NCBI RefSeq assembly: GCF_008042075.1
Contig: NZ_RDBN01000033.1
Location: 408,272 to 447,067, forward strand
Direction of reading: 5' to 3'
Length of the DNA: 38,796 nt
Origin: Streptomyces sp. UW30
Lineage (GTDB): Bacteria; Actinomycetota; Actinomycetes; Streptomycetales; Streptomycetaceae
Below, piece by piece: positions 938 to 38,796 of this stretch. The number at the start of each line of letters is the position of its first letter. Position 1 is the stretch's first letter. The position numbers and the translations under genes were made by a program. Below the pieces are notes generated by a model. It worked only from the letters and a program-made list of their open reading frames with translations. It made no database searches and was not told the DNA's origin.

Positions 938-1009
938 CCGACGCTCAGTGGATGCCGAGAGCTTGGGGGAGCGACCAGCCACGACGGGCCCGCAGCCTGC
1001 AATGAAGCC

Positions 1010-2893: not shown

Positions 2894-2946
2894 GCGCTCC
2901 GCTGGTGGTGCCGGGTTGTGTCGCCTTTTGTCTGCGGCGCCGTTGT

Positions 2947-2990: not shown

Positions 2991-3084
2991 CACCGCAGCC
3001 GGCAAGGGGAACCGGCGGGCCCGAAGGACCGTTGTGTCAGGCTGAGGGCGTAAAGGCCTGTTTCGGACGTGAGGTGGGCTGGGC

Positions 3085-5166: not shown

Positions 5167-5202
5167 AAAATCGGCTGCGTACGAGGGGCCGCAGGCACAC
5201 AC

Positions 5203-5228
5203 TGTTCGAGTCGCAAACCGCTCGAACA
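5203..5228. promoter_or_regulatory. Inverted repeat upstream of MoxR-DUF2201 operon
   Basis: An exact 8-bp inverted repeat TGTTCGAG / CTCGAACA with a 10-nt spacer lies just before the ribosome site (AAGGAG, 5234-5239) of the MoxR-like gene. It could be an operator or a hairpin in the leader. No regulator is identifiable for it. Confidence 0.4.
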
Positions 5229-5247
5229 CTCCCAAGGAGCACCTGCC

Positions 5248-8111: not shown

Positions 8112-8177
8112 GCCCGAGTGTGATCGGATGGGGGGCACGGACCCAGGAAAACGGGCCCCCACGCGAAAGGAAGAATC

Positions 8178-8606: not shown

Positions 8607-8640
8607 CGCTCCGCTGGGGGAGCCGCATATCGACGCCGCC

Positions 8641-8662
8641 CCGCGCCCCTTCGGGGGCGCGG
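8641..8662. terminator. Hairpin with TTCG loop downstream of osmC-like gene
   Basis: A 9-bp perfect stem CCGCGCCCC / TTCG / GGGGCGCGG lies between the OsmC gene and the next plus-strand gene. UUCG tetraloops make very stable hairpins. There is no T-run, which is normal for many Streptomyces terminators; it is also related to the dispersed intergenic stem-loop seen at 2947 and 19996. Confidence 0.55.
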
Positions 8663-8694
8663 TCCCCGCCCCCGTCTCAGGAAGTCGACCGAGG

Positions 8695-9483: not shown

Positions 9484-9528
9484 TTTTGTGCTGGAGTTCA
9501 AGAGGTGCCCTGGCGGAAGGGGACAACG

Positions 9529-11406
<1,878 letters not shown>

Positions 11407-18857: not shown

Positions 18858-18914
18858 GCGGTGCGGTCTCCTCGTGGGCTCGATCGCCGTGGTGGTGCTC
18901 TGCCGGTGCTGTGT

Positions 18915-19047
18915 CTCAACAGGTCTCGCGGTACTCAACAGGTCTCGCGGTACTCAACAGGTCTCGCGGTACTCAACTGGTCTCGCTGTACTCAACAGGT
19001 CTCGCGGTACTCAACTGGTCTCGCTGTACTCAACAGGTCTCGCGGTA
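18915..19047. repeat. Seven 19-bp tandem repeats at the 3' end of the XRE regulator gene
   Basis: Seven contiguous 19-bp units with no spacers. Units 1, 2, 3, 5 and 7 read CTCAACAGGTCTCGCGGTA; units 4 and 6 (18972-18990, 19010-19028) are the variant CTCAACTGGTCTCGCTGTA. Unit 7 contains the last codons and stop of the XRE gene (EYRETC-stop on the minus strand), so the array is a serial copy of the gene's own 3' end. It occupies most of the gap to the downstream methyltransferase gene and could bear on its expression. Confidence 0.95.
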
Positions 19048-19893
19048 CTCCCGCAGGATCTTCTTCGTGCGCTCCGCCGACGCGGCGGCCGTCGACATGT
19101 GGTCCAGGACCTCCAGATGCGCGGCGACCTCCGTGCGGGAGTCCAGATACAGGGCGCCGCTCAGATACTCCGTGTAGACCATGTCGGGCAGCTCCGGCTC
19201 TCCGAAGCGGAACAGGGTGAAGGGCGCGTACGTCCCCGGGTGCGGGCCGAAGGCGAACTCGGCGATCTGGAGCGTGACACGGTCGCGCTCGGCGAACTCC
19301 AGAAGCCTGTCCACCTGGTCGCGCATCACCACGCCACCACCGCTCACCGGGCGCCGCAGCACCGTCTCGTCCATGATCACCCACAGGTGGGGCGGGTCCG
19401 GGCGCTCCAGCAGCCGCTGGCGCTCCATGCGCAGGGACACATGCCGCTCCACGGTCTGCGGCCCGGTCTGCCCGATGGTTCCGGCCCGCATCACGGCACG
19501 GGCGTACTCCTCCGTCTGGAGCAGGCCGGGCACGAAGTGCGGCTCGTAGGACCGGATGATCCGCGCGGCGCCCTCCAGGCTCACATACAGACTGAACCAG
19601 TCCGGCAGCACGTCGTGGAACCGCTGCCACCAGCCCGGCTGGTTGGCCTCCTCGGTCAGCGAGACGAACGCGGCCGCCTCGTCGTCCGGGACGCCGTACG
19701 TCTCCAGGAGCACCTGCACGTACGGGATCTTCAGGGCGACCTCGGCCGTCTCCATGCGACGTATCGTCGCCGCGGTCACGCGCAGGACCTGCGCGGCCTC
19801 GTCGCGTCCCAGGCCGGACGCCTCTCGCAGTTCCTGCAAGCGTTTGCCGAGCACCACCTGGCCCACGGTGGGCGCGGGCCGCCGCTCACTCAC
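19030..19893 (-). CDS. XRE-family regulator with DUF5753 C-terminal domain
   Basis: A 287-residue regulator of the type abundant in Streptomyces (WhiJ-like). An N-terminal helix-turn-helix covers about residues 15-70 (GKRLQELREASGLGRDEAAQ then VTAATIRRMETAEV). The DUF5753 domain follows, with the marker SYEPHFVPGLLQTEEYARA and the RQRLLERPDPPHLWVIMDE stretch. The GTG start at 19893 has GGGAGG 6 nt upstream. It is co-directional with, and probably regulates, the neighbouring methyltransferase gene. Its final codons lie within the first (as transcribed) unit of the 19-bp array. Confidence 0.9.
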   Translation of the reverse strand: MSERRPAPTVGQVVLGKRLQELREASGLGRDEAAQVLRVTAATIRRMETAEVALKIPYVQVLLETYGVPDDEAAAFVSLTEEANQPGWWQRFHDVLPDWFSLYVSLEGAARIIRSYEPHFVPGLLQTEEYARAVMRAGTIGQTGPQTVERHVSLRMERQRLLERPDPPHLWVIMDETVLRRPVSGGGVVMRDQVDRLLEFAERDRVTLQIAEFAFGPHPGTYAPFTLFRFGEPELPDMVYTEYLSGALYLDSRTEVAAHLEVLDHMSTAAASAERTKKILREYRETC

Positions 19894-25960: not shown

Positions 25961-27580
25961 TCAGCGTGCCCGCTCCACCCGGCGCTCGTCCCACACCGGC
26001 TCTTGGGTCTCGCGTACCCAGCCGTCGCTGCCGAAGACCAGGAAGCGGTCGAAGAACCGTGCGAACCAGCGGTCGTGGGTGACCGCCAGGACCGTCCCCT
26101 CGTACGACTCCAGACCTTCCTGGAGAGCCTCCGCCGACTCCAGGTCCAGGTTGTCCGTCGGCTCGTCCAGCAGCAGCGCGGTGGTCCCCTGGAGCTCCAG
26201 CAGCAGGATCTGGAAACGGGCCTGCTGGCCACCGGAGAGGCGGTCGAAGGTTTGGTCCCCCTGGCGGTCCAGCTCGTAGCGGCGCAGCGCCGACATGGCC
26301 GCGCCGCGGTCCTGGGCGTGCTCCGTCCACAGGATGTCCACCAACGTGCGCCCCATCAGCTCCGGATGCGCATGCGTCTGAGCGAAATGACCCGGTATCA
26401 CCCGTGCGCCCAGCTTCACCACTCCCGTGTGGGCGACGTCCTCCCCGGCCAGCAGCCGCAGGAAGTGCGATTTACCCGAGCCGTTGGAGCCGAGGACCGC
26501 CACTCGCTCGCCGTAGAAGACCTCCAACGAGAACGGCTTCATCAGCCCGGTCAGCTCCAGATGCTCGCATGTGACGGCCCGCACCCCGGTCCGGCCACCC
26601 CGCAGACGCATCCGGATCTCCTGCTTGCGCGGCGGCTCCGGCGGCGGGCCGATCTCCTCGAACTTGCGCAACCGGGTCCGGGCCGCCTGGTAACGGGAGG
26701 CCATATCGTCGCTGCGCGCGGCGTACTGCTGCAGGTCCTGTACCAGCTTCCTGAGCTGGGCGTGCTTCTCGGCCCAGCGGCGGCGCAGTTCCTCGAACCG
26801 GGCGAACCGCTCCTGCCGTGCCTCGTGGAAGGAGCCGAAGCCGCCACCGTGCACCCAGACGTCGGAGCCGGCCGGTCCCGGCTCCACCGCGATGATCCGC
26901 CCGGCTGCGCGGGCCAGCAGCTCCCGGTCGTGCGAGACGAACAGAACGGTCTTGCCGGTCTCGGCGAGTCGCTCCTCAAGCCATCGTTTGCCCGGTACAT
27001 CCAGATAGTTGTCGGGTTCGTCCAGCAGGAGGACCTCGTCCGGACCGCGCAGCAGCGCCTCCAGCACGAGCCGTTTCTGCTCACCACCCGACAGAGTGCG
27101 CACCTGGCGCCACTGCGCCTTCTCGTACGGCATCCCGAGCGCGGCCATGGTGCACATGTCCCATAGAGTCTCCGCCTCGTAGCCTCGCGCCTCCGCCCAG
27201 TCGGCGAGGGCCTGGGCGTACTTCATCTGGGCGGCCTCGTCGTCCACCGTCATCATGAGGGTTTCGGCCGCGTCGACGGCCCGGGCGGCCTGCTGGATGC
27301 GCGTCGGCGCCACCGACACCAGCAGATCGCGGACCGTGGTCTCGTCCCGCACCGAGCCGACGAACTGCCGCATCACCCCGACGCCGCCACTGGAAGTCAC
27401 GGTGCCGCCGTGCGGCTTCAGCTCGCCGGACAGCAGGCGTAGCAGCGTGGTCTTGCCGGCGCCGTTCGCCCCGACCAGGGCCGCCACAGTTCCCTCGCCC
27501 ACCCGGAACGACACGTTCCCGAGTAGCACCCGACCGTCGGGCAGGTAGTACTCGAGGTGAGAGGCCTCCAGATGTCCCAT
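25961..27580 (-). CDS. ABC-F ATPase, probable ribosome-protection (self-resistance) protein
   Basis: A 539-residue cytoplasmic protein with two ABC domains and no membrane domain. Domain 1 has GANGAGKTTLLR, LSGGEQKRL and LLLDEPDNYLD; domain 2 has GSNGSGKSHFLR, LSGGQQARF and LLLDEPTDNLDLES. Between them is the basic, helical linker (about residues 240-330) that in ABC-F proteins reaches toward the peptidyl-transferase centre. As the last gene of a nucleoside-antibiotic-like operon it is the best candidate for self-protection. I start at MGHLEAS (27580), but its ribosome site is close and weak (AGGAAAG); an in-frame ATG at 27691 would add 37 residues. The 153-base gap upstream could be a leader. 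Confidence 0.88.
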   Translation of the reverse strand: MGHLEASHLEYYLPDGRVLLGNVSFRVGEGTVAALVGANGAGKTTLLRLLSGELKPHGGTVTSSGGVGVMRQFVGSVRDETTVRDLLVSVAPTRIQQAARAVDAAETLMMTVDDEAAQMKYAQALADWAEARGYEAETLWDMCTMAALGMPYEKAQWRQVRTLSGGEQKRLVLEALLRGPDEVLLLDEPDNYLDVPGKRWLEERLAETGKTVLFVSHDRELLARAAGRIIAVEPGPAGSDVWVHGGGFGSFHEARQERFARFEELRRRWAEKHAQLRKLVQDLQQYAARSDDMASRYQAARTRLRKFEEIGPPPEPPRKQEIRMRLRGGRTGVRAVTCEHLELTGLMKPFSLEVFYGERVAVLGSNGSGKSHFLRLLAGEDVAHTGVVKLGARVIPGHFAQTHAHPELMGRTLVDILWTEHAQDRGAAMSALRRYELDRQGDQTFDRLSGGQQARFQILLLELQGTTALLLDEPTDNLDLESAEALQEGLESYEGTVLAVTHDRWFARFFDRFLVFGSDGWVRETQEPVWDERRVERAR

Positions 27581-27733
27581 CTTTCCTGTGTCCTTGTCTG
27601 CTGTACGGATATGGCGTGGGTGCGCCGGCGCGCTGTGTGGGCGGGCGGCCCCAACCACGGTGCCAGGCGGGCCCGGTCGACGGCTGCTCATTATTTTCCC
27701 GGCCGCCGGCAGCCGGGGCCCCGAGGCATCCGC

Positions 27734-29029
27734 TCAGGCGTTGTGGAGGTCCGGGTCCGCTGGATCGCGGTGGGTCGAGCCGGGGGTGCCGGCCGGGGCC
27801 GTGAACCGGTGGCGTACGGCGAAGGCGACGGCGGTGCCCGCCAGCAGGGCGGCGACCGCCGCGGCGAAGGCCGCCCAGGTGCCGTAGGCGCCGACGAGGA
27901 GACCGCCGAGTTGAGCACCGACGGCGGTGCCGACGACGTTAACGGTGATGACCCAGGTGAAGGCCTCGGTGATGGCGCCTGATGGGGCCGTGCGCGCGAC
28001 GAGTTCGTACTGCACGACCGTTACCGGGGCATAGACCAGGCCGCCGACGGCGAGGGCCAAGCCTATCGACCAGTTGTCCCAGGCGAGCAGGGGCAGTGCG
28101 GTGAGCGCGGACAGGAGGAGCAGGCCGATGGCGAGGGTGCGTTCGGCGGGCCAGTCCCGGGTGCGGCTGCCATACCAGAGCCCGCCGACGACCCCGCCGA
28201 CGCCCCAGGCACCGAAGATCAGCCCGACGCTGTCCGCGGAGCCGTGTTCCTCGGCAAAGGCGGGCAGGGCTAGGTTGAACACGCCCGTGGACACGGCCGC
28301 GCAGATCAGGATGGCCAGCAATCGGACCAGGCCCGGCGAGCGCAGAGCGCCCAGCAGGTCGCTCTCGGTCTCCTCGGCGCGCCAGTTGCGCGAGGCTTGC
28401 GTGGTTGCGAAACCGATGGCACCCACGCCCGCCAGAACCCCGCCGACGACCAGGGCCGTGGCGGGGGTTCCCCAGAACAGTATGCCGCTGAGCAGCAGCG
28501 GTCCGCCGATGAAGAAGATCTCGCTGAGCACCGCCTCCAGGGAGAAGCCCGCCTCCCGGCCACTGGTGGGCAGCGCGCTCCACAGCGACCGGACAGAGCC
28601 GCTGATCGGCGGGATCGTGGCGCCCGCGACGCTCGCGCACACCAGCTGCAGGAGGCGGGCGTCAGGCGCCACGCACACCAGAGCGATCAGTGCCAGCGGG
28701 TGGACAACACCGGTAAGGAGGAGCAGGGGAGTTTGGCCGTGCACGTCGACGCGGCGGGCGACGATCGGCGCAAGCATCGCACCGCCCAGCGAGTAGCAGG
28801 CCAGCAGCAGGCCCGCGGAACCGTAGCCCGTGCCTCGCGAGGTAGCGAACACTACAAGGGCAAGCGAGACCAGGAACAGCGGGAACCGGCCGACGATGCT
28901 CCACAGCAGTGGAGCGCGCATGTCCCTGTCTCTCAGGACGGTGAGGAACCGGTTCCCGGCGGGCGCAGGCTTGGAGTCGGTTTCGGTGGACGGCTCTTCG
29001 GGCCTGCTGTCGGATACGGCATGGGTCAT
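27734..29029 (-). CDS. MFS transporter, probable product exporter
   Basis: A 431-residue major facilitator protein with about twelve hydrophobic segments and short soluble ends. It opens with RFLTVLRDRDMRAPLLWSIV, where the first membrane segment begins, and the acidic helix FSLEAVLSEIFFIGGPLLL lies near residue 165. It sits 51 bases downstream of the aminotransferase gene and ahead of the ABC-F gene, so it is most simply the efflux pump for the cluster product. Specificity cannot be read from sequence. Confidence 0.85.
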   Translation of the reverse strand: MTHAVSDSRPEEPSTETDSKPAPAGNRFLTVLRDRDMRAPLLWSIVGRFPLFLVSLALVVFATSRGTGYGSAGLLLACYSLGGAMLAPIVARRVDVHGQTPLLLLTGVVHPLALIALVCVAPDARLLQLVCASVAGATIPPISGSVRSLWSALPTSGREAGFSLEAVLSEIFFIGGPLLLSGILFWGTPATALVVGGVLAGVGAIGFATTQASRNWRAEETESDLLGALRSPGLVRLLAILICAAVSTGVFNLALPAFAEEHGSADSVGLIFGAWGVGGVVGGLWYGSRTRDWPAERTLAIGLLLLSALTALPLLAWDNWSIGLALAVGGLVYAPVTVVQYELVARTAPSGAITEAFTWVITVNVVGTAVGAQLGGLLVGAYGTWAAFAAAVAALLAGTAVAFAVRHRFTAPAGTPGSTHRDPADPDLHNA

Positions 29030-29080
29030 GGCATTCTCTCGGTTCTTGTGGGGAAGGTCCGCCGGGCAGGTGGGTGCCGT

Positions 29081-30244
29081 TCAGAGCTCGGCAACGACGG
29101 CGGCAATCTCCTTAGCGAACATGATCTGTTCCGCCTCGTCGAGTTCCGGGGTGAGCGGTATGCACAGGGTGCGGCTCAGCCGGTCGCGAGTTGCGGCGAA
29201 ACCGTCCCGGCTCAACGGCGCGTAACGGTCGTCGCCGTCGGCCAGGTTCCACGGGAACCCATCCGCGTACAGCGAGGCGCGGCCCGCCACCACCGGGTGC
29301 TCGGGCAAGAGGTACTTGTCCAAGCTCCAGCAGGGCAGCCCCCGTTCCTCCAGCCGCTCTATGGCCCGGTCTCGCAGACGTCGCGACTCCACCAGCAGCC
29401 GCACGCTGGTCTTGACGTCACCGGGGCGCTTGGGGATCACGGTGACGTCCGAGCGCTCGCCGAGCGCCTCCAGCGTCAGGGCGTAGTGCCGCTCCAGAGA
29501 GGAGAGGATCTCATCCAGCCGCCGGAACTGCTGGAGCTGTACGGCGGCCACGGCCTCGTTGGCACACAGGTTTTCGCCGTAGAACGCGCCGGGGTTCCAG
29601 CCCGGGTACTTGCCCTGCTCGCGGGCCGAGCCGTGGTCGGTGTAGGAGCGCAGGACGTCCCAATGGGCGGGGTCGCGGACCACGACCAGGCCGCCCTCGC
29701 CGGAGGTGAGGATCTTGGCGTGGTGAAAGCTGAACGTGCCCGCATAGCCGACGGTACCGGCGTGCCGCCCGTCCGTGTGGTGTCCTCCCATGGCCTGCGC
29801 GCTGTCCTCGATCAGGTACGGCACCCGCTCGGGCAGGTCGACGACAGTGCCCTCCATGTGCGCCACCACCACTCGCTCCGCGTCCGCGGGCAGCAGCGAG
29901 GCGTCCAGGCCGAACCGCTCATCGACGTCGACGAGGACCGGAACCAGTCCGCAGGACAGCACGGCACCGGCCACCGCGACGAACGTGACCGCCGGTATGT
30001 ACACGGGGTCGCCGATCCGCGGTCGGGTGCCCATCAGCGCCACGCGCAGGGCCTGTGTGCCGTTCGGCACGGTCAGCGCCCGCCCCGCGCCGAGCCGCTC
30101 GGCCGCGTACGCCTCCAGCAGGTCGGCGTTGCTCGGCGCAGGGGCGCTGTAGCGGAAGAGGACCTTGTTGTTGAGGGACCGGTGCAGTTCGGGGGTGTCC
30201 CCCAGGGAGAGGTAGTTGGCGCCGTAGGGGAAGGGACGCAGCAT
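29081..30244 (-). CDS. DegT/DnrJ/EryC1/StrS-family PLP aminotransferase
   Basis: A 387-residue sugar aminotransferase-type enzyme. PLP signatures are present: NGTQALRVAL near residue 61, the cofactor-ring aspartate in LIEDSAQ (Asp147) and the Schiff-base lysine Lys177 in FSFHHAKILTSGEGG. The ATG at 30244 has GGAAG 7 nt upstream; the longer frame lies over the neighbouring gene's end. Family members transaminate keto-sugars. In blasticidin-type pathways such an enzyme acts on the keto intermediate left by the radical SAM step, so I infer it adds an amino group to the cytosine-linked hexose here. Confidence 0.9.
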   Translation of the reverse strand: MLRPFPYGANYLSLGDTPELHRSLNNKVLFRYSAPAPSNADLLEAYAAERLGAGRALTVPNGTQALRVALMGTRPRIGDPVYIPAVTFVAVAGAVLSCGLVPVLVDVDERFGLDASLLPADAERVVVAHMEGTVVDLPERVPYLIEDSAQAMGGHHTDGRHAGTVGYAGTFSFHHAKILTSGEGGLVVVRDPAHWDVLRSYTDHGSAREQGKYPGWNPGAFYGENLCANEAVAAVQLQQFRRLDEILSSLERHYALTLEALGERSDVTVIPKRPGDVKTSVRLLVESRRLRDRAIERLEERGLPCWSLDKYLLPEHPVVAGRASLYADGFPWNLADGDDRYAPLSRDGFAATRDRLSRTLCIPLTPELDEAEQIMFAKEIAAVVAEL

Positions 30245-30296
30245 CAGCAGGCTTCCGTTCGAGGTGGGTGGACAGGGGCTGCGGGGAGAGGCCGCG

Positions 30297-31235
30297 TCAG
30301 AACGGGGCGAGCAGGAGCTGCCGGACCTGACGGGCGACGCGCTGGGCGCCGCGCCGGTCGTCGCCGGCGTGCTCCAGTGCCCGGGAGATGCTGTTCCAGA
30401 GCGGGTCGGCACCTCGGACGGCGCGGGCGGCCGAGGTGTCTGGTGCGGCCGCGTCGAGCACCTCGATGCCGGTCGCCTCCGTGATCCCTGCAAGCCGACC
30501 GGCCTGGTCCGCGTCCAGCGCTGGGAGCAGCAGCAGCGGGACCCGAGCGGCGTGCGCCTGGTTGACGGCAGTCAGCAGGGGCGAGGAGACCAGCAGCGAC
30601 GCCTCGGCCAGCAGCCGCTCCGTGGTGGCCTCCTCGACTCCTATGACGGGCAGCGCGCTGGTGTCCTCTCCGGCCGCGGACAGCAGGGCGGACCGTGCGG
30701 GCACCGGCGCGTCCAGGACCACACCGAGCAGCGGTTTCCCGTCGTACCGTGCCGCTTCCGCGGCGGCGCGCAGGGCCGCGCCCGCCCGGGCGACGGCCGC
30801 GTGGTCGGCGGGGTGCAGATCCGGCGTGGACAGCTGGACGACCGCGCCGCGCGCCGCACGCGCCCGGGCGGCCCGGGGCGGCGCGATCGTGCCGACCGTG
30901 TGCACGCCCATGGCGCGCTGCCCGCCCAGCCAGCCGGGCCGGTGCAGGCAGCGGACGGCCGACGGCGGCCAGGTGTCGCCGGGCGGGGGGCCACCGGAGG
31001 CGACGAATACAACTGGCACGCCGGAGGCGCTCAGGCGCGCGGCGAGCACATCGTCGTCGCACACCACGGCGGCGCCGAGGGCGGGGCCTGCGTCCGGCTC
31101 AGCGGTCAGCTCGACTTCGGTGAGGTGGGCGCTGACATGGCGCAGCGCGGCCCGGGACTCCAGTGTGGGTCGGGCGGCGGCGAGAACGCGCAGCCGCGGC
31201 GGGGCGGGATGCGGGGCTGTGGTGGGTGAGGACAT
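30297..31235 (-). CDS. CGA-synthase-related, glycosyltransferase-like protein
   Basis: A 312-residue protein that resembles the C-terminal half of the CGA synthase three genes upstream in gene-order terms. The alignable block is LLVSSPLLTAVNQAHAARVP here against LLASPGLTTLLETSTRGVPV there, the donor-binding region of GT-B-like enzymes. The N-terminal half is short and the glycine-rich motif of the full synthase is lacking. It may be an accessory subunit or second glycosyltransferase acting on the nucleoside; catalytic competence is uncertain. The ATG at 31235 follows CGGAG. Confidence 0.6.
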   Translation of the reverse strand: MSSPTTAPHPAPPRLRVLAAARPTLESRAALRHVSAHLTEVELTAEPDAGPALGAAVVCDDDVLAARLSASGVPVVFVASGGPPPGDTWPPSAVRCLHRPGWLGGQRAMGVHTVGTIAPPRAARARAARGAVVQLSTPDLHPADHAAVARAGAALRAAAEAARYDGKPLLGVVLDAPVPARSALLSAAGEDTSALPVIGVEEATTERLLAEASLLVSSPLLTAVNQAHAARVPLLLLPALDADQAGRLAGITEATGIEVLDAAAPDTSAARAVRGADPLWNSISRALEHAGDDRRGAQRVARQVRQLLLAPF

Positions 31236-31289
31236 GGTGGCTCCGGGCGCGGTCGGTTCCAGACGCGGGCGTGAGGGGAAGGCGGGGCG

Positions 31290-32282
31290 TCAGTAGTTCC
31301 AGGCCGGTACGGCGCCCATGCGTGCGAGGTCGTCGCTGTAGCCGGCGGCGGTCGTGGAGCAGCCGCCGCACATCGTCGGACCCTGCTGCTTGAAGAGATC
31401 CACGTGGGTGCGGAAGACGGGGCTGTCGAGCATGACCTTGCCGTCGTCGGTGCGCAGCGGCGCGCCGCCGGGGCCCTCGTCCCCCTCCTTGTGCGGAAGG
31501 CAACTGCACGAGAACATCCGGCCGTTCTTGCCGTCCAGGTAGATCACGTCCTCGGTGACCAGACACAGCGGCTCCGAGGCGCGCGGCGGCAGGGACTCCT
31601 CGAAGAAGGCCTTCTGCTCCTCGGGTGTGTCGCCGTAGAAGCGCTTGCCGAGCGGTACGAGCGTGGTGGTCGGGTCGGCGGTGTAGATGGGCTCACAGGA
31701 GGCGATGACCTCCTCCGCCGACGGATAGCGGATCTCACGGTCCAGCTTGATCGCGGACAGCTCCCACTGCTGGACGCCGAGGTCGGTCAGCACCCGCTGC
31801 AGCTCGGGCATCTGCGCGAAGTTGTGCGGTCCCACGACGGAGTTGACGCGCGGGATGATCCCCAACTCCTTTGCCCGGCGCAGCCCTTCCAGACCGTTGT
31901 CGAACATGCCGGGAGAGCGGCGGTAGACGTCGTGGGTGGCAGCGGAGGAGCCGTCCAGACTGACGATCACCTGGGCCAGCCCGGCGTCGGCGAGCCGGTC
32001 GACGAAGCGGGGCAGGAACATGCCATTCGTGATCAGCGACATGCGCATGCCGTGCTCCGTGCCCATGCGCACCAGATCGACGACGTCCCGGTGCATCAGC
32101 GGCTCGCCGCCGGTGAAGCGGACGTAGCCCACCCCCTTCGCGACCGCCTCCGGCAGCAATTCGGCGAAGTCCTCCGGGCTGAACCGGTAGGTGTCCCGGG
32201 ACAGGGCGAACTCGCACATGAAGCAGTCGGCGTTGCATGCCTCCAGCACACGGATGAACAGATAACGGTGTCGTTCCTGCAT
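31290..32282 (-). CDS. Radical SAM enzyme, BlsE-like (acts on cytosylglucuronate, predicted)
   Basis: A 330-residue radical SAM enzyme. The [4Fe-4S] motif is Cys16-x3-Cys20-x2-Cys23 (EACNADCFMC), followed by the SAM-binding FTGGEP (56-61). C-terminal cysteines (240, 259, 261, 305, 308) suggest a SPASM-like auxiliary cluster. Immediately upstream lies a CGA synthase-like gene, and the aminotransferase lies two genes downstream, which is the neighbourhood of BlsE/MilG in blasticidin S and mildiomycin clusters. BlsE has been described as modifying cytosylglucuronic acid; the exact outcome here (decarboxylation or diol dehydration) cannot be read from sequence. GAAAGG precedes the ATG at 32282. 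Confidence 0.82.
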   Translation of the reverse strand: MQERHRYLFIRVLEACNADCFMCEFALSRDTYRFSPEDFAELLPEAVAKGVGYVRFTGGEPLMHRDVVDLVRMGTEHGMRMSLITNGMFLPRFVDRLADAGLAQVIVSLDGSSAATHDVYRRSPGMFDNGLEGLRRAKELGIIPRVNSVVGPHNFAQMPELQRVLTDLGVQQWELSAIKLDREIRYPSAEEVIASCEPIYTADPTTTLVPLGKRFYGDTPEEQKAFFEESLPPRASEPLCLVTEDVIYLDGKNGRMFSCSCLPHKEGDEGPGGAPLRTDDGKVMLDSPVFRTHVDLFKQQGPTMCGGCSTTAAGYSDDLARMGAVPAWNY

Positions 32283-32296
32283 GATCGGTCAGCCTT

Positions 32297-33583
32297 TCAG
32301 GAAGGGAGGTCAGCGGGGCGGTGACTGGTGCCGCGGCGAGCCGCGGTGGCCAGCACGATGTCGGCGACCTGGGCCGCGCCGCCGGTGCCGACCAGCCGGG
32401 CCAGGGCGGTCCATTGGCCTTGCTGCCGCTCGACCGCGGCGAGGCAGGCGCCGATGCGCTCGGTCAGGGCCGCGCGGACCGGCGCGGGGGTGCGGGCGGC
32501 GCGCGCGATCCCGCCGTAGATCAGTTCCAGGGCGGCATCCTCGCCGGGCGATCCACCGTCGTCCGCGACGTCACCGGGTGCCGTGACCAGGCGGGCGTCG
32601 AGCACCTCCTGGGCGCGGAACACCTCCTCGGGCCACTCGGCGACCGGCGCCTCGGTGGCCTGCGCGTAGAAGGAGGCGTTGAGGATCTGGCTGATGTTCT
32701 GCGGGGGCAGGCACACCACGGGCACCCCGCGCGTGCTGGTCTCCAGCAGCGTGGTCAGACCGGGGGAGGCGAGCAGGACGTCGGCCTCAGCGATCTCGGC
32801 CAGGAAGCCCTGGTGGCCGAGGGCGCCGCTTCGTACGTCCAGGCCCGCCGGGACGGTGATGCCGTCGAGCACCCCCTCGGGCACGTTGCCGCACAGCGTG
32901 ACCTGACGGGTGCCCCACGCGGCGAGAGCGCCAAGCACGGCCGGCACCGTCAGGGACAGGTAGGCGGAGGGGTCGTCCAGCAGCGGTGACAGCAGGCCGC
33001 CCAGGCTGACCACCGCGCGGCGTTCGCCGGCCCGCCGCACCTCGCGTCCTGTCCGAACCGGCCCGGGGACGACCACCGACTCGACCCAGCGCAGGTTCTC
33101 CACACGGGCCAGCACGGGCCAGGCCGGACCCGGCAGCCCGGGAACCAGCTGTGCGCAGTAGGCGCCGGCTCGCAGCGGCAGGCTGTCCAGGTCGTCCTTC
33201 GTCCACAGGAACGGCAGGCTGTCGACGAACACGACGGGGCAGCCTGCGTCCTCCAGCGCCACTGCAGCGGCCCGGTCCAGGACGCACACGGCGGCGTCCA
33301 GGGACCGCTCGTCCACCAGGGCGCGCAGCGCCCGCGCATCCGTGAGGTCGACGTCGTGCCACTCTTCGACACCGTGGCCGCGCACGATCTCGCGGCCGAG
33401 CCGCGAGCCGAGCCCGACGAAGCGCACGCAGTCGCCGAGCTCCGCCCGCAGCGCGTGCACGATCGCACCGAGCTTTCCGGCACTGCCCCAGCCGAACTCG
33501 ACACCGCACAGGGCGACGGTCACGGCGGTGGGCGGCCGGCCGGGCCCGGCGGCGGCTGGGAGTGTCCGCAGTGCGGTCGTCAT
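32297..33583 (-). CDS. Cytosylglucuronic acid (CGA) synthase-like glycosyltransferase
   Basis: A 428-residue GT-B-like enzyme that I recognise as related to CGA synthases (BlsD/MilC type), which join cytosine or a cytosine derivative to glucuronic acid from UDP-glucuronate. The N-terminal domain has ALCGVEFGWGSAGKLGAI (24-41) and the C-terminal donor domain has LLASPGLTTLLETSTRGVPV (270-289) then LPPQNISQ. The start MTTALRT overlaps the CMP-hydrolase stop as ATGA. Context supports the call: the preceding gene should release free cytosine and the next is a radical SAM enzyme. Close nucleobase glycosyltransferases remain possible. Confidence 0.75.
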   Translation of the reverse strand: MTTALRTLPAAAGPGRPPTAVTVALCGVEFGWGSAGKLGAIVHALRAELGDCVRFVGLGSRLGREIVRGHGVEEWHDVDLTDARALRALVDERSLDAAVCVLDRAAAVALEDAGCPVVFVDSLPFLWTKDDLDSLPLRAGAYCAQLVPGLPGPAWPVLARVENLRWVESVVVPGPVRTGREVRRAGERRAVVSLGGLLSPLLDDPSAYLSLTVPAVLGALAAWGTRQVTLCGNVPEGVLDGITVPAGLDVRSGALGHQGFLAEIAEADVLLASPGLTTLLETSTRGVPVVCLPPQNISQILNASFYAQATEAPVAEWPEEVFRAQEVLDARLVTAPGDVADDGGSPGEDAALELIYGGIARAARTPAPVRAALTERIGACLAAVERQQGQWTALARLVGTGGAAQVADIVLATAARRGTSHRPADLPS

Positions 33584-34254
33584 GCCGGCACCACCGTTTC
33601 CGCGGCGGCCGGCTCCGCCGCGGGCGTGCCGGGGCGGCCCGTCGCGTGCCGGTGGTAGGCCAGGGCCGGGTCCAGCTCCGGTGCGCTCCACGGCCCCGGC
33701 CGGACGCCGAGACCGGCCGCCCAGTCCAGGGTGGTGCGGACCGCGCCGTCGAGGCTCTGCGCGGACCAGCTGCCGTCGAACGGCAGCTGCAGCACCGGGG
33801 AGATCTCGCCGAGTGCCGAAATCATCGGGCTGTAGGTGGTGCCGGGGTCGAGCAGCAGGGCGACGGGCTTGCGCAGCGCGGAGGCCCAGCCCAGTTCGAG
33901 CGCGACGCCCGTGGAGGGCGGGGTCCCCGGGTAGGCGAGCACCAGGTCGGCGCACTGCATCGCGCGGAAGTCGGAGGGGACGCACTCCTGTGGGGGCAGA
34001 CCCCACTCGCCCCACCCCTCGTTGTGGTGGGCGTTGAAGACTGCATGCCCGGCGTCGAGAAGTGCCTCACGCAAGGCCGACAGCCGCTGCCGCCACTGCG
34101 GACGGACCACGCCATCGGCCGGATCGATGAACTGCACGAACGGCGCGGCGAGAAAGACACGCAGGCCACCGGTGAGGCCGTCGCCGATGCGCCGGCCGGC
34201 CGCGGTGTGCGCCGCGGCAGCGGACGTAGGGGGCAGGGGAGTGGTGCCGCTCAT
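33580..34254 (-). CDS. CMP nucleosidase-type hydrolase (BlsM/MilB-like)
   Basis: A 224-residue protein of the nucleoside 2-deoxyribosyltransferase-like fold. It shows the substrate loop VFLAAPFVQF (33-42), an FNAHHNEGWGEWG segment, CADLVLAYPG and the catalytic-glutamate motif STGVALELGWA (Glu120). In blasticidin S and mildiomycin clusters, members of this family split CMP (or hydroxymethyl-CMP) into the free base and ribose 5-phosphate. It overlaps both neighbours by ATGA. I infer that it supplies cytosine to the CGA synthase-like enzyme; the residue that sets preference for the plain or hydroxymethyl base was not determined. Confidence 0.75.
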   Translation of the reverse strand: MSGTTPLPPTSAAAAHTAAGRRIGDGLTGGLRVFLAAPFVQFIDPADGVVRPQWRQRLSALREALLDAGHAVFNAHHNEGWGEWGLPPQECVPSDFRAMQCADLVLAYPGTPPSTGVALELGWASALRKPVALLLDPGTTYSPMISALGEISPVLQLPFDGSWSAQSLDGAVRTTLDWAAGLGVRPGPWSAPELDPALAYHRHATGRPGTPAAEPAAAETVVPA

Positions 34255-34628
34255 GCCTGCTCACCCGCCTCGGTCAGCCGGTCATACTTCAGGGCATTAC
34301 CGCGTGCCAGCTCCACCGGGTAACGCTGCTCGTTGAGGGCGAGCTTCTCGCGGGCGGCCGCGAGCAGGTCGATACCGGCCGAACGGGACAGCCGCAGCAG
34401 ATAGTTGAGGATGTCGGCAAGTTCGTGGGCGAGTTCGCGGCGGAACTCGGGGTCCTCGAAGGGGCGTGCCGCGGCCTCCTCCGGGGTGAGCCACTGCAAA
34501 AGCGCCAGCAGTTCCCCGCTCTCGCCGCCGAGGGCCATCGCCAGGTTCTTGGGGTTCTGGAAGGCGTCCCAGCCGCGTGCGGCTACGAAGGAGTGCAGTT
34601 CGTCGGCGTACTGGTCCAGGTCACTCAT
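34251..34628 (-). CDS. MazG-like nucleotide pyrophosphohydrolase
   Basis: A 125-residue all-alpha NTP pyrophosphatase. The metal-binding pattern ExxE...ExxD is present as Glu36/Glu39 in GGESGELLAL and Glu69/Asp72 in HELADILNYLLRL. Such enzymes convert (d)NTPs to (d)NMPs plus pyrophosphate. It overlaps the GNAT gene by 8 bases and the CMP-hydrolase gene by ATGA. The position suggests that it turns CTP or dCTP into the monophosphate used by the next enzyme; a house-cleaning role is the alternative. Confidence 0.88.
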   Translation of the reverse strand: MSDLDQYADELHSFVAARGWDAFQNPKNLAMALGGESGELLALLQWLTPEEAAARPFEDPEFRRELAHELADILNYLLRLSRSAGIDLLAAAREKLALNEQRYPVELARGNALKYDRLTEAGEQA

Positions 34629-35721
34629 GTGCGTCTCCGGTGCGGTGCAGCGCTGCGGGCAGCGTCAGGCCCCATTGAACGATGCAGGTGTCGGGGTGGT
34701 ACGCGGCCGGCATCAGGCCCTCCAGGGACCAGCCGCGGCTCTGCATGAGCGCGGTGATGGCGGGATCCGGCGGCTGGTGGGTGTAGAGCTTGCGACCGAG
34801 CCCGCGGTACAGGTCGGGCAGCTGGTCCAGAAGCTGGGCGAGGACGGCTGGATGGTCCGCGCACAGCGGCATCAGCTTGACGGACAGGCCCTTCTTCGGG
34901 CCGGCGGCGGCCACTCCGCACACGGTGTTCGTTTCGTCCACCGCCACGTGGATGATCTTGAACTTCTGGTTGAGATCACCGTGGTCGCGCCGGTCGTGCC
35001 CGGCAATCAGCGCGTCCACCCAGTCCGCGTTCACACCCCGGTACGCGGGCTGCATCGCGCGCAGCACGAGCTCACGCAGCCCGGGCGCGTCCTGTGGCCG
35101 GAACAGGCGGATGCGGGCGTCGCTCACGACACCGCTGTGGTCGTCCCCGGCGGGCTCCGTGCGCAGGGTCAGGTCCTTGTAGAGCATGTGCTCGGTGCTG
35201 TCCGACTTGTACTGGCCGGGCGCGCCGCCCGCCAGCACGAAGCCATGCCAGAGGAAGAAGTCGATCGCGGCGGTGTTGGCGGCGGCGACCGTGCAGTAGA
35301 GCTGCCGGGCGCCGGCCTCGCGGGCGAAGTCCTCCGCCGCGCGCAACAGCGTGGTGCCGAGTCTGGAGCGGCTGCGGTGCTCCGGCACGAGGATCAGCGG
35401 ACTGATCTTCACCGTGCCCTGGCGCTTGACCACCAGGTGCAGCACACCCAGCCGCTCGGCGTCGGGTGTGTCGTCCGAACACAGCATGAAGGTGCGCTGG
35501 GAGTGGGAGAAGTGGCCGAACGGATCGCGTCCGGAGGCGAGATGCGCATCGAGGACGCGATCGGCGTGCGCGGCGTGGTCACCGTCGTAGAACGGGCTGA
35601 GCGTGCTGGTGAAGAGGGACCTGAGGAAGTCTCGGTCGTCCTCGCCGGCCGCGCGGATGCGGGGGGAGCCGGCCTGGGGCGGCTCAGTCGTGGGCAGGGG
35701 CGTGTGTGTCAGGGCTGTCAC
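34621..35721 (-). CDS. Tandem GNAT-domain N-acyltransferase
   Basis: A 366-residue protein with two GNAT domains. The first (about 25-190) begins RIRAAGEDDRDFLRSLF and has the acetyl-CoA loop VPEHRSRSRLGTTLL and AANTAAIDFFLWHGFVLAGG. The second (about 205-360) begins RIRLFRPQDAPGLRELVLRA and ends SRGWSLEGLMPAAYH. The GTG at 35721 has AAGGTG 8 nt upstream; the ATG at 35805 would extend into the leader. It starts the tightly overlapped part of the operon. It may acylate the amino sugar, as tailoring or self-protection, but substrate and acyl donor are not known. Confidence 0.8.
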   Translation of the reverse strand: MTALTHTPLPTTEPPQAGSPRIRAAGEDDRDFLRSLFTSTLSPFYDGDHAAHADRVLDAHLASGRDPFGHFSHSQRTFMLCSDDTPDAERLGVLHLVVKRQGTVKISPLILVPEHRSRSRLGTTLLRAAEDFAREAGARQLYCTVAAANTAAIDFFLWHGFVLAGGAPGQYKSDSTEHMLYKDLTLRTEPAGDDHSGVVSDARIRLFRPQDAPGLRELVLRAMQPAYRGVNADWVDALIAGHDRRDHGDLNQKFKIIHVAVDETNTVCGVAAAGPKKGLSVKLMPLCADHPAVLAQLLDQLPDLYRGLGRKLYTHQPPDPAITALMQSRGWSLEGLMPAAYHPDTCIVQWGLTLPAALHRTGDAHE

Positions 35722-35764
35722 CGTGTGATCACCTTGGTCTGGGTCGCTGGGCTGCTGTCGCTGT

Positions 35765-35902
35765 TCACACCAGGTGCCGTCCGGCCGAAAGGTCCCGCAT
35801 GGCACGGGACTTGCGCATGTACCGGGTGGGCGGGGTCTTCTTCAGCCAGCGGTCGGTGCCATGGGACTCCGCATCGTGGGTCGACGTCTGCCGCGGGACC
35901 AC
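35765..35902 (-). CDS. Candidate 45-residue basic small protein in operon leader
   Basis: A GTG-initiated small frame ending 43 bases before the GNAT start. The C-terminal part reads RWLKKTPPTRYMRKS then RAMRDLSAGRHLV. It is strongly basic, has no signal peptide, and nearly all third codon positions are G or C, better than the overlapping 76-residue frame (35718-35948). The ribosome site is weak (AGGG). I do not recognise a family. It could be a small protein, a leader peptide controlling the operon, or a peptide substrate. Confidence 0.4.
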   Translation of the reverse strand: MVPRQTSTHDAESHGTDRWLKKTPPTRYMRKSRAMRDLSAGRHLV

Positions 35903-35995: not shown

Positions 35996-36025
35996 ACGCT
36001 AGGTGCGGCTGGACAGACTTGTCAA
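35996..36025 (-). promoter_or_regulatory. Predicted promoter of the nucleoside operon
   Basis: On the minus strand a consensus -35 TTGACA (36025-36020) is followed after 18 bases by TAGCGT (36001-35996), which fits the actinobacterial TANNNT -10. The -35 is part of a TTGACAAG box. Transcription would start near 35989, giving a leader of about 270 bases ahead of the GNAT gene. Confidence 0.65.
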
Positions 36026-36057
36026 TCGCTCATCGAGTCTTGTCAAACTTTGGCAAG
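36018..36057. promoter_or_regulatory. Operator region: two CTTGTCAA boxes and a 19-bp palindrome
   Basis: CTTGTCAA occurs at 36018-36025 and 36039-36046, 21 bases apart (two helical turns). The second lies in CTTGTCAAACTTTGGCAAG (36039-36057), an inverted repeat matching at 8 of 9 positions around a central C. Both boxes overlap -35 elements of the divergent promoters. The same word, as TTGACAAG and TTGACAAA, is repeated in front of the HTH-TPR regulator gene (36757-36774). I infer a shared operator, most simply for that regulator. Confidence 0.55.
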
Positions 36058-36068
36058 TGATCTAGCTT
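36040..36068 (+). promoter_or_regulatory. Predicted promoter of the signal-peptide gene
   Basis: TTGTCA (36040-36045) and TAGCTT (36063-36068) are separated by 17 bases, matching the -35 (5 of 6) and the TANNNT form of the -10. It diverges from the operon promoter, and the -35 lies inside the 19-bp palindrome. The transcript would begin about 115 bases before the peptide start codon. Confidence 0.6.
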
Positions 36069-36189
36069 CAAACTGACCGAGCGGCCGCCGCCGGCTTCCA
36101 GGGACTGACCGTTCCCGGGCCGGTCCGACCGCGCACCTGCCCGGTGGGCCTACAGACACCACCGCACTCAACTTCCCGGGGGAAGACTC

Positions 36190-36393
36190 ATGAAGGACGC
36201 CTGTCGTCGCACTACCACCGCCGTCCTGTCGGCCGCAGTCCTCGCACTCGGGGCGGCCGCCGTCCACGCCGGCACCGAGGGCCGTGCGGTCCAGGCCTCG
36301 CAGGTGAGGATCGACTGGCCGCTTCACGGCGCGCACGACGTCCGCGTGCTGTCCGCTACGGCCGCCGTGGCAGACCGCATCGACTGGCCGTAA
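36190..36393 (+). CDS. Small secreted peptide precursor with duplicated RIDWP motif (candidate signal)
   Basis: A 67-residue precursor. The N-terminus is a clear Sec signal: MKDACRRTT, a hydrophobic run (AVLSAAVLALGAAA) and a likely cut after VHA near residue 27. The remaining 40 residues contain RIDWP twice: once mid-chain as VRIDWPLHG and once as ADRIDWP at the exact C-terminus. The copies share 13 identical bases (ATCGACTGGCCG plus flank). GGGGGAAG precedes the ATG. No modifying enzyme dedicated to a RiPP is adjacent. The next gene is an HTH-TPR regulator, so a pheromone precursor of the RRNPP kind is the favoured inference. A small antimicrobial or structural peptide is the alternative. 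Confidence 0.65.
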   Translation: MKDACRRTTTAVLSAAVLALGAAAVHAGTEGRAVQASQVRIDWPLHGAHDVRVLSATAAVADRIDWP

Positions 36394-36756
36394 CCTTCGG
36401 GGCGCCCGGTTGCGGCGAGGGTTTGCCCCCTGTGCGGTACGGGTCGCGGCGACCGGCCTTGACCTGTAGGGCATCTGCGGTGACGGGCTGACCTGCGTGG
36501 AGCGTCCAGTGCGGCGGGCTGTGGCCTGCGTGGTGGGCGGCTGGGTTACTGCTCGTGACCCGACGGCGGGCGCCGGACATCCGCGGCCGGCTCCCGCTCT
36601 CCGCGACGGGACCGCTCTGCGTTCCGGCCTGGAAGCGGCGGGCCGCCGTGCGGCGTCCCACGCCGGGCGGAAGCGGTGTCCGGGCGGGGCTTGCGCAGTC
36701 CGCAGTCCCGGTGTCCGGCTGGTTTGCCGGGTCGCCGTCCCCTTCACCGGTCAGGG
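36394..36756. other. Intergenic gap with no recognisable gene
   Basis: Frames here are open only because of GC richness and lack ribosome sites or recognisable protein sequence. No clear hairpin terminator was found after the peptide gene, so read-through into the regulator gene is possible. Confidence 0.5.
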
Positions 36757-36795
36757 TTGACAAGAGTTGACAAACCTGTCTCCCATACTGAAAAT
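36757..36795 (+). promoter_or_regulatory. Predicted promoter of the HTH-TPR regulator with paired TTGACAA boxes
   Basis: TTGACAAG (36757-36764) and TTGACAAA (36767-36774) lie 10 bases apart, one helical turn. The second supplies a consensus -35 TTGACA (36767-36772), followed after 17 bases by GAAAAT (36790-36795) as a weak -10. The GTG start of the regulator is 40 bases further on. The repetition of the same box as in the divergent region suggests autoregulation. Confidence 0.6.
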
Positions 36796-36835
36796 GGTCC
36801 CATTCACGGGGACCCACAGGCTGAGGGATGGCTAA

Positions 36836-38083
36836 GTGCTCGAACAACCCGGGTTCGGACAGCTATTGAAAACCCTCCGGCAGGAGCGGGGCCTGTCCCA
36901 GGCCGAGGTTGCCGAGGGGGGCATGTCCACCGCGTATCTGTCACGCCTGGAGTCCGGGGCCCGGCGCCCGACCGCTATGGTGCTCGACCACCTCACCCGG
37001 CGACTGGGCGTGCCCGCGTCCGTTTTCCAGGGCATCCACACCTCGCTGCTGGGTCAGGCCCTCGCCTCCGCCAGTTCCTCGGATGATGCCGACGACGCTA
37101 TCCGCCTGCTCGGCGAGGCCGTCCAGGCGGATAGCGGCGAGGATCTCTCCCTGCGCTGGCTGTCCCTGTGGAAGCTGGTCCAGCTGCACGCCAAGCAGGG
37201 CAAACGCCAGGACGAAGTCGCCGCGGCACGCGAACTCACTGAACTCAGCGACCGCCTGGAGGTGTCCACCCTCCAGGTGCGCTCCCGCACTCTCCTCGCC
37301 CGCTGCCTGCGTTCCGTCGGTGACATCGACGAGGCCCGCGCCGTCGCCCAGACCGCCCTCGTTACGGCCGACAATGGGGACGTCCCAGTGGCGGACACCA
37401 TCCGCGCCCAACTGGTGCTCGTCTCGGTCGAGGCGGAGTCGGGCCTGATCACGGAGGCGCGCCGGCTCGCCGACCAGCTGCTGGAACCGATCGACGCCCT
37501 GCCCCCCGTGCTGCGTGCCGAGGCCCTGTGGTCGGCCGCCAACGTACGCATCCGTCAGGGTGACTACCCGGGTGCCGTCGAGCTGTTGCAGCGGGCCCTG
37601 ACCGAACTGCCCAGCCACGTCGACCTGGTGCTGCGGCTGCGGCTGGCCGCCTCTTCCCTGTACCTGCAGATGACCCCGCGCCGGGTGACCGAGGCCCAAC
37701 AGTGGCTGGCCGAGGCCGAAAGCGCCTTGAGTCTCTTCGGAGGCCCGCTGCACCGCCAGGAGCTTCTCGTCATCAAGGCCCATCTCGCCTTTCACCAACG
37801 GGACTTGGTGCAGGCCAAGATGCTGTGCGAACAGCTCACAGACGCCCTGCCGCAGCTGACCTTCCGCGACCGGATCCGGCTTGAGGTCCTCGCCCAGCAG
37901 ATCCGCATCCTCGAGGGCGACCGCGAAGCCGGTGTCCGCCGTATCGAGGAACTCGCCCAAGAGGCCCAGAGCGCCTCCAACGTCCACCTGGCCTCTGAGA
38001 TCTGGCGCACGCTGGCCGAGACCCTGGCCTGGGCCTCGGAGAGACAGGCCGACCCCAGCCTCCGGGAGCCCCCGGCAACCTGA
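36836..38083 (+). CDS. HTH-TPR regulator, RRNPP-like peptide-sensor architecture
   Basis: A 415-residue regulator. Residues 1-64 form an XRE helix-turn-helix (FGQLLKTLRQERGLSQAEVA, ending YLSRLESGARRPT). The rest is alpha-helical repeat: pairs such as DEVAAARELTELSDRLEVST, DIDEARAVAQTALVTAD, ALWSAANVRIRQGDYPGAVE and HLAFHQRDLVQAKMLCEQL are TPR-like. An N-terminal XRE domain with a C-terminal TPR solenoid is how Rgg/PlcR/PrgX-type proteins bind imported peptides; MalT-like sensing of something else is possible. The GTG at 36836 follows GAGGGATG. It is downstream of the secreted peptide gene and carries the shared boxes in its promoter. Confidence 0.85.
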   Translation: MLEQPGFGQLLKTLRQERGLSQAEVAEGGMSTAYLSRLESGARRPTAMVLDHLTRRLGVPASVFQGIHTSLLGQALASASSSDDADDAIRLLGEAVQADSGEDLSLRWLSLWKLVQLHAKQGKRQDEVAAARELTELSDRLEVSTLQVRSRTLLARCLRSVGDIDEARAVAQTALVTADNGDVPVADTIRAQLVLVSVEAESGLITEARRLADQLLEPIDALPPVLRAEALWSAANVRIRQGDYPGAVELLQRALTELPSHVDLVLRLRLAASSLYLQMTPRRVTEAQQWLAEAESALSLFGGPLHRQELLVIKAHLAFHQRDLVQAKMLCEQLTDALPQLTFRDRIRLEVLAQQIRILEGDREAGVRRIEELAQEAQSASNVHLASEIWRTLAETLAWASERQADPSLREPPAT

Positions 38084-38350
38084 CCGCCGGGCTCGCGGGA
38101 CTGACCGCACCGCCGGCCGAGGAGTGGCTCGACGGAAAAGAACTCTCAGCCGCGCTCTTCGACAAGCCCGGCGCGCGGCGCCGGGCGCCGGACGAGGAGA
38201 TCGGACCACGGGTGTGGCGGAGAGCCGTATGGATGTCGGCCCGGCGGACGGGTTTGCCGTCGGGGCACGACGAAGGACGGCGACACCCTCATGGGGTGCC
38301 GGGACGGGGGTACTTCGGGCGCAGCCGGGCCCACTTCCGCGCGTTCCCCA
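38084..38350 (+). other. Decayed coding region, unassigned
   Basis: One frame has good codon bias at first (TAPPAEEWLDGKELSAALF then DKPGARRRAPDEEIGPRVW) but has no start codon or ribosome site and loses its bias by about 38230. I do not recognise it. It looks like the tail of a gene truncated during rearrangement. Confidence 0.35.
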
Positions 38351-38629
38351 GTGATCGCCGGCCAGCAATACGCCCGCGTCGCCGCGGACGTCCAGCAGCT
38401 GGGCCTGTACACCTCCACCGACCGCCCCCTGGCCCCGGCCGGCATCCACCTGCGCGACGAACGCGAGGCGGAGAGCGAAGACATCAAGACCGAGATCCTC
38501 GGCACCCGCTGGAGGCGAATCCTCCTCTAGGGCCACGGCAAGGACGAATCGATCAACCTCGCCGACTTCACCCTGTGCGGCTTGAACGAGACCGCCCCGT
38601 GCGTCCCAGGGCTTCTCGGCCCGGCCTGA
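38351..38629 (+). pseudogene. Unassigned gene remnant with in-frame TAG
   Basis: The frame from GTG 38351 has near-perfect GC third-position bias: VIAGQQYARVAADVQQLGLY ... AESEDIKTEILGTRWRRILL. It is then broken by TAG (38528-38530) and continues in the same frame as GHGKDESINLADFTLCGLNE up to a TGA at 38627. The conserved look on both sides of the TAG suggests a single nonsense mutation in a small gene that is also missing its N-terminus. The family is not known to me. Confidence 0.5.
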
Positions 38630-38644
38630 GCCTACGCCCCACCT

Positions 38645-38796
38645 GCAACAAGCCTTCCCGCTCCCCTGCCGCGAGGTCGTGGAGCTGATGCTCGAGCGCG
38701 GCATCGAAGTCTCGTACGAGGATCACCGCCGGTGGTGTGCGAAGTTCGGCCAGAAGTATGCGAACCGGCTGCGCCGGCGCCGACCTCCTCCCGGTG
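38645..38796 (+). pseudogene. IS6-type transposase fragment (runs off window)
   Basis: The frame reads FPLPCREVVELMLERGIEVS then YEDHRRWCAKFGQKYANRLR and RRRPPPG, which matches the start of IS6-family transposases (FPLSFREVEELM...VSYE..RRWC.KFG..YA..LRRRRP). The usual first ~25 residues and a start codon are absent, so the 5' end looks damaged. The rest lies beyond the window, so whether the element is intact downstream is unknown. Confidence 0.75.

Follow-up and report, generated by a model that had tools for sequence, protein, structure and literature searches.

Peptide signaling of the RRNPP type proceeds through export of a small precursor, its cutting, uptake of the resulting peptide, and binding of that peptide in the groove of a tetratricopeptide repeat (TPR) domain. 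In PlcR-PapR, the signal is a C-terminal piece of the precursor; some Phr precursors contain more than one copy of the peptide, the Rap proteins being devoid of a DNA-binding domain; and Rgg and ComR are XRE-TPR regulators working with short linear peptides from single-copy precursors. The gamma-butyrolactone systems rely on an enzymatically made small-molecule ligand and a TetR-type receptor. A large RRNPP survey encompassed Firmicutes and viruses only, and signals in Actinomycetota are typically described as small enzyme-made molecules (PMC10075063). Here we describe a gene pair in a 38,796-nucleotide (nt) stretch of the 9.9-Mb genome of Streptomyces sp. UW30 (NZ_RDBN01000033.1:408,272-447,067; hereafter the window), in which a 67-amino-acid (aa) precursor with two IDWP motifs precedes an XRE-TPR regulator. 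From left to right, the right end of the window comprises a minus-strand nucleoside-type gene group, a gap with promoter boxes, the precursor gene, a tandem box, and the regulator gene. Recurrence of this pair beside antibiotic-type gene clusters in many soil bacteria suggests that such peptide signals form a family not described before, and among the matches listed in a search of the full-text literature, the scope of which lay outside most subscription journals and all preprints, no account of it was found.

The precursor gene (36190 to 36393, plus strand, ATG start), which has homologues in other loci, encodes a product laid out as MKDACRRTTTAVLSAAVLALGAAAVHA, then a cleavage-like point, and then GTEG...RIDWP...DRIDWP followed by the stop codon. 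Its N-terminus combines basic residues with a hydrophobic segment (Kyte-Doolittle mean of 2.3 over the best 12 residues), and a Sec-like signal sequence, delimited by eye, would span aa 1 to 27 (36190 to 36270), with cleavage between AVHA and G giving a 40-residue pro-peptide. The two IDWP copies occupy aa 41 to 44 (36310 to 36321) and aa 64 to 67 (36379 to 36390), the latter at the extreme C-terminus, and this gene is the only place in the genome where ATHGAYTGGCCN is followed by a stop codon. The peptide gave no Pfam match up to an E value of 1, the DUF397 domain included, and no convincing gene was seen in the 442 bases between precursor and regulator. Compared with the closest orthologue, 15 of the 67 precursor codons differ and none of these falls within either IDWP copy, an outcome expected by simple arithmetic about once in eight by chance, so that alone it could be fortuitous; in the precursor body, nonsynonymous change (dN, 0.078) is almost as fast as synonymous change (dS, 0.097). 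Because IDWP is unchanged while the arginine before it becomes proline in the orthologue's second copy (PIDWP), the conserved unit, and probably the peptide core, is IDWP rather than RIDWP. Across the 127 motif copies of the family described below, the residue before the motif is likewise variable, being most commonly D (67 copies), with G in 16 and R in only 4. Of the secreted 67-residue precursor with RIDWP repeats that the original prediction had put forward, the precursor itself, its two repeats, and the C-terminal position of one of them were therefore borne out, secretion stands as a prediction, and RIDWP as the mature unit was rejected in favor of the family unit [IV][DEG]WP.

Homologues of the regulator were collected from public genomes as the best 79 distinct loci of 204 relatives, to which the window was added as the 80th, and they represented Streptomyces, Kitasatospora, Micromonospora, Amycolatopsis, Nonomuraea, Actinomadura, Lentzea, and other genera. 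Within 1.5 kb upstream of the regulator (116 kb in total), [IV][DE]WP matched 61 times in 38/80 loci, against 2.4 matches expected from the rate in 1.29 Mb farther off, a rate that itself includes family members. In the same regions, nine re-ordered control motifs produced 0 to 4 matches and eight substituted motifs 1 to 4, the exception among substituted motifs being [IV]GWP, with 28 matches in 19 loci, which is a real variant. Considering [IV][DE]WP, [IV]GWP, and box-linked genes, a candidate precursor was present in 59/79 loci, or in 57/79 after two doubtful cases were dropped, namely, an 8-aa open reading frame (ORF) at L055 and an ORF without a start codon at L082. A search of the peptide-less loci under looser rules contributed variants with IGWP, TDWP, or LDWP, along with a precursor of six copies encoded on a Kitasatospora plasmid (L113), the remainder yielding no peptide. 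Moreover, 30 further Streptomyces loci were examined; in 18 of them, the window itself included, the regulator shared 90% identity or more with one collected earlier, which left 12 loci that had not been used for motif finding; a motif-bearing small ORF lay upstream in 8/12 of these, with 7 clear cases, L135 counted despite its unclear start, and L127, L129, L134, and L115 being 87 to 90% identical to earlier loci. A homologous peptide beside orthologous regulators, which the original prediction had proposed to look for, is thus found in both sets. Pairs were spread over both the deep branches and the tips of a receptor tree with 89 rows. The pairing is a conserved family and not a chance repeat.

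The receptor was detected in 37/199 Streptomyces genomes sampled (E values up to 1e-60), and the genes next to the regulators vary widely, including nonribosomal peptide synthetase, ketosynthase, nucleoside, and futalosine-type genes. It also occurred on 37 plasmid records, 35 of them from Streptomyces, with biosynthesis-type genes annotated nearby in the six regions viewed (L110 to L114 and L150), and precursor-type genes in three public plasmid records are annotated merely as hypothetical proteins. In a second species (L147), six ORFs of the adjoining operon are 95 to 98% identical to those of the window (one of them truncated where the stretch ends), the regulator is 94% identical, and the peptide is 85% identical; the cassette has been inherited together with the operon. 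The L147 stretch (1 to 9155) additionally holds a second receptor next door (7959 to 9155, 39% identical), together with GNAT and aminotransferase relatives and boxes at 7318, 7339, and 7863, and no motif peptide was found there.

For the anatomy of the family, 70 precursors from 62 loci were retained, excluding L041 (TDWP), L076 and L110 (LDWP), L112, and matches without a start codon (the far one at L023 and the regulator's own frame at L024). By a crude hydrophobicity threshold, applied after a script had reassigned start codons and leaving L024 and L079 borderline, 44/70 precursors have a signal-like N-terminus and 26/70 do not. Multiple motif copies were present in 36 of the 44 signal-like precursors (two copies in 23, three in 7, four in 5, and six in 1), and each of the 26 leaderless precursors carries a single copy (Fisher p ∼2e-12, related loci not being independent). 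Such a tie between copy number and a signal-like N-terminus fits export and cutting and is the best indirect sign of extracellular processing. Among the 127 copies, residue 1 is I in 113 and V in 14, and residue 2 is D in 63, G in 49, and E in 15, the tryptophan, the proline, and the choice of residues at positions 1 and 2 being imposed by the motif search. The motif is retained across precursors with differing bodies, and the precursor ends exactly at it in 23/44 signal-like and 11/26 leaderless cases. No NCBIfam model reached the cutoff for three regulators and seven precursors.

Two precursor types per locus were observed at L058, L063, L068, L069, L075, L081, L084, and L091, as well as at the plasmid locus L112: one, oriented divergently to the receptor gene, is a leaderless peptide with a single copy (e.g., MRPSVCA...DDDIGWPKR), and the other is a signal-bearing multi-copy precursor 1 to 7 kb away, near boxes of its own. 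At L058, L081, and L084, the leaderless peptide has IGWP and the signal-bearing one IDWP. In addition, one receptor clade (L072, L078, L076, L088, and L110) has apparently lost the signal-like N-terminus, and its (V/L)(D/E)WP C-terminus stays. In leaderless lines, the tail may be used inside the cell, or the peptide may be a second, perhaps opposing, partner.

The promoter box TTGNCAA is a palindrome. Three boxes (36019, 36040, and 36050; 36019 to 36056) stand in the gap that separates the peptide gene from the divergent operon, the first ORF of which begins 210 bases or more away from this set, and a tandem (36757 and 36767; 36757 to 36773) forms part of the regulator promoter, with equivalent boxes at L147 for both sets; the shared box noticed in the original prediction was confirmed accordingly, its assignment to an operon promoter being tentative. 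Exact matches to the tandem TTGNCAA-N3-TTGNCAA number two in the genome, both at this locus, against 0.017 to 0.029 expected from the window base composition, and one more place matches with one mismatch; at up to two mismatches, the tandem was not commoner than its backwards control (29 versus 41 per strand). Upstream of family regulators, tandems with a spacing of 10 or 11 bases were strongly enriched, with 18 exact gap-4 tandems in 55.6 kb upstream versus 10 in 1.46 Mb elsewhere, and a run of at least two boxes (at most one mismatch each) lay within 420 bases upstream of 48/89 regulators. No common -10 position was found behind the boxes. Because of their exclusive placement, we infer that the regulator binds the tandem TTGNCAA sites.

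The regulator (36836 to 38083, plus strand, GTG start) is a single chain of 415 aa with an N-terminal helix-turn-helix (HTH; aa ∼7 to 62) and C-terminal TPR helices (aa 71 to 405), matching the Pfam HTH_31/HTH_3 and TPR families, as had been claimed for the gene downstream of the precursor. Its AlphaFold2 (AF2) model, built on an 80-row alignment, reached a pLDDT of 94.6 and a pTM of 0.84. Foldseek against the PDB revealed PlcR-PapR7-DNA as the best match (E value, 1.3e-6; TM, 0.42 by query length), and the top ten also included NprR (TM, 0.59) and phage Rap (0.56 to 0.58) amid LGN, MalT, and other TPR proteins. A second structure aligner placed NprR and the majority of Rap chains at Z scores of ∼23 to 25 and AimR at 19 to 21. 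Chains 4yv6 and 5w4m, listed as "Transcriptional regulator" and presumably Rgg proteins, were matched in the HTH. With helix roles assigned by us from the AF2 model, polar or aromatic positions conserved at 85% or more numbered 23/153 in groove-type helices versus 4/123 in outer helices, and the conserved residues R149, R156, W232, R267, R269, R344, and R348 are candidates for contact with the peptide. The modeled fold thus supports RRNPP kinship without proving it, since TPR homology is inseparable from that of other TPR proteins, and the RRNPP-type pairing originally proposed holds as regards a receptor fold like those of PlcR, NprR, and Rap, with the reservation that other TPR proteins score equally.

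On balance, we consider it probable, and well short of certain, that the pair is a cluster-situated peptide-signal module working like an RRNPP system and regulating the adjacent cytosylglucuronate-type nucleoside operon. The 67-aa pre-pro-peptide would be exported by Sec with removal of its leader, and the 40-aa pro-peptide would be cut after proline, giving two short peptides ending in (I)DWP, most simply IDWP (calculated [M+H]+, 530.261, versus 686.362 for RIDWP). Such a peptide would be taken up through an oligopeptide permease, the genome containing 16 matches over the Pfam cutoff to the SBP_bac_5 binding-protein family, which makes uptake plausible, and would be bound in the concave TPR groove of the neighboring regulator, with which fold and conservation are consistent. 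Acting on the tandem TTGNCAA boxes, which precede its own gene and also stand between the peptide gene and the operon, the regulator would close an autoregulatory loop that sets the timing of operon expression and might place it under density control. For export, cutting, uptake, and binding, a plausible component exists in each case, namely, a leader, a repeated proline-ended motif, SBP_bac_5 matches, and a TPR groove, respectively.

A number of results weigh against this proposal. No candidate precursor was found in 20/79 loci and 4/12 fresh loci, no box run of the above kind lay within 420 bases of the other 41/89 regulators, and the 26 precursors that keep the motif without a signal-like N-terminus count against obligatory secretion and are the most serious of these objections to processing outside the cell. 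TPR folds are common, and in the second structure aligner, APPBP2 ranked top (26.7), MalT domain III and APC/C chains equaled Rap and NprR, and PlcR was not among the 50 matches listed, and the family profile matched ComR and PlcR in the HTH only, beside unrelated XRE and designed TPR proteins. Covariation between motif residue 2 and basic receptor residues (positions 261 and 340) ran in the expected direction in one to about two of four independent pairs and was opposed in none, four such pairs being too few to reach significance. Moreover, no relative was found in viral contigs or phage records, and a phage-borne arbitrium-like system was rejected on that ground.

Part of this evidence would be accommodated if the small protein acted within the producing cell, its unexported (I/V)(D/E/G)WP tail docking in the TPR groove so that it served as a co-regulator and not as a population signal; recognition of C-terminal tails by TPR proteins is well established. 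Besides the leaderless precursors as such, some of which sit beside the regulator with common N-termini (MRPSVCA... or M-H-VPARRAAR...), the tail survives at L072 in an ORF of just 21 aa, a hydrophobic N-terminus being present in its relatives L067 and L071. We nevertheless regard this explanation as unlikely, given that the window precursor and 43 others are signal-like, that multi-copy forms are confined to these (36/44 versus 0/26), and that in all eight two-peptide loci the second peptide is a separate signal-bearing multi-copy gene no more than 600 bases from a tandem box. Less probable still is that the regulator senses some other ligand, for example a nucleoside or another metabolite, and that the small protein is a target gene with an unrelated secreted function. 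The 20 loci without a peptide speak for it, as does L006, which has none in the 394 bases upstream and whose divergent ORF looks like an MFS pump by eye; in addition, MalT is a metabolite sensor, and its TPR domain scores as well as Rap. However, since the adjoining genes differ widely from regulator to regulator while (I/V)(D/E/G)WP recurs, the peptide is the better common ligand.

The precursor could also be that of a ribosomally synthesized and post-translationally modified peptide (RiPP), the IDWP repeats being modified cores and the regulator merely controlling the cluster; RiPP precursors can indeed hold repeated short cores behind a leader, and the annotated plasmid loci lie amid varied biosynthetic genes. 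Yet no family of nonregulator neighbors occurred in more than 25/82 loci, as judged by crude gene calling, and the representative of the most frequent neighbor cluster looks like a wrong-frame artifact of that calling; furthermore, the genes of the window operon suggest a nucleoside pathway, and the box links the peptide and regulator promoters, making this the most improbable of the readings weighed here. A toxin-antitoxin pair was set aside by argument, since a tetrapeptide repeated after a secretory leader is at odds with it. The peptide-signal module remains the reading that we favor.

The minus-strand gene group adjoining the pair (25961 to 35805) fits, by its gene content, a blasticidin- or mildiomycin-like cytosine nucleoside pathway, both the product and its reading as a single operon being putative. 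By Pfam, its first gene encodes a GNAT acetyltransferase (34621 to 35805; the true start may lie within the ORF), followed by a MazG-like protein (34251 to 34628), which at 24.7 bits falls under the Pfam gathering score of 27. Pfam and sequence comparison identified a CMP hydrolase-like protein related to BlsM/MilB (33580 to 34254) and a radical-SAM protein closely related to cytosylglucuronate decarboxylase (31290 to 32282). Between these two, an ORF at 32297 to 34015 had no Pfam match at an E value of 1e-4; its called start overlaps the CMP hydrolase gene, its real start probably lies inside the called ORF, and its product may resemble cytosylglucuronate synthase. A DegT/DnrJ aminotransferase (29081 to 30493), an MFS transporter (27734 to 29029), and a tandem ABC ATPase (25961 to 27691) complete the Pfam assignments, the last being probably an ABC-F-type self-resistance protein and probably a member of the operon. 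Past the regulator (38084 to 38796), only small or broken-looking ORFs were seen, one of which (38291 to 38530) has a 54% identical relative on the same side of the regulator at L147. Elsewhere in the window, an XRE-looking ORF (19030 to 19893) lies beside a minus-strand ORF (18042 to 18938) resembling a Streptomyces SAM-dependent methyltransferase, both judged by eye, and a DnaK-looking ORF, also by eye, falls within 9505 to 11406; the TTGACAA-containing stretch upstream of the latter, at 9464, is possibly a heat shock-type site distinct from the tandem TTGNCAA box.

It is conceivable, although we hold this wider claim only tentatively, that a widespread and so far unannotated class of linear-peptide pheromones exists in actinomycetes, in which secreted precursors hold as many as six copies of (I/V)(D/E/G)WP and dedicated XRE-TPR receptors switch individual antibiotic-type clusters, and that the second, leaderless peptide of some loci is an intracellular antagonist or a self-recognition signal. 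If the peptide-signal reading holds, about one-fifth of Streptomyces species (37/199 genomes) would possess a gene-encoded signal only a few residues long, one that could be synthesized as a peptide and used directly in attempts to elicit silent antibiotic clusters. The motif together with the TTGNCAA box offers a simple route to finding such clusters.

In comparison with known systems, the IDWP pair shows the RRNPP architecture in each respect considered: an HTH-TPR chain, an adjacent precursor that is of Sec type by hydrophobicity, and pairing across species. It resembles PlcR-PapR of the Bacillus cereus group, the top Foldseek match, in having an HTH-TPR receptor beside a small exported precursor (export here being predicted), and differs in its occurrence in Actinomycetes, its (I/V)(D/E/G)WP core, its up to six copies, its tandem TTGNCAA boxes, and its association with antibiotic-type clusters, sequence similarity being limited to the HTH. 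With NprR-NprX and Rap-Phr, it shares a TPR superhelix of similar length, whereas the peptides are different and those systems belong to Bacillota; with Rgg-SHP and ComR-ComS of streptococci, it shares HTH profile matches to ComR, whereas the motifs and the phylum are different. Within Streptomyces, XRE-DUF397 pairs of the Scr1/Scr2 type are similarly reported to combine an XRE regulator with a small partner affecting antibiotic production, but the partner here has a secretory-type leader, tetrapeptide repeats, and no Pfam family, and the regulator has a full TPR domain. Finally, gamma-butyrolactone receptors of the ArpA/ScbR type are comparable in exerting cluster-situated control of Streptomyces antibiotics, and two of the plasmid loci that carry the receptor described here have annotated ScbR-family genes nearby.

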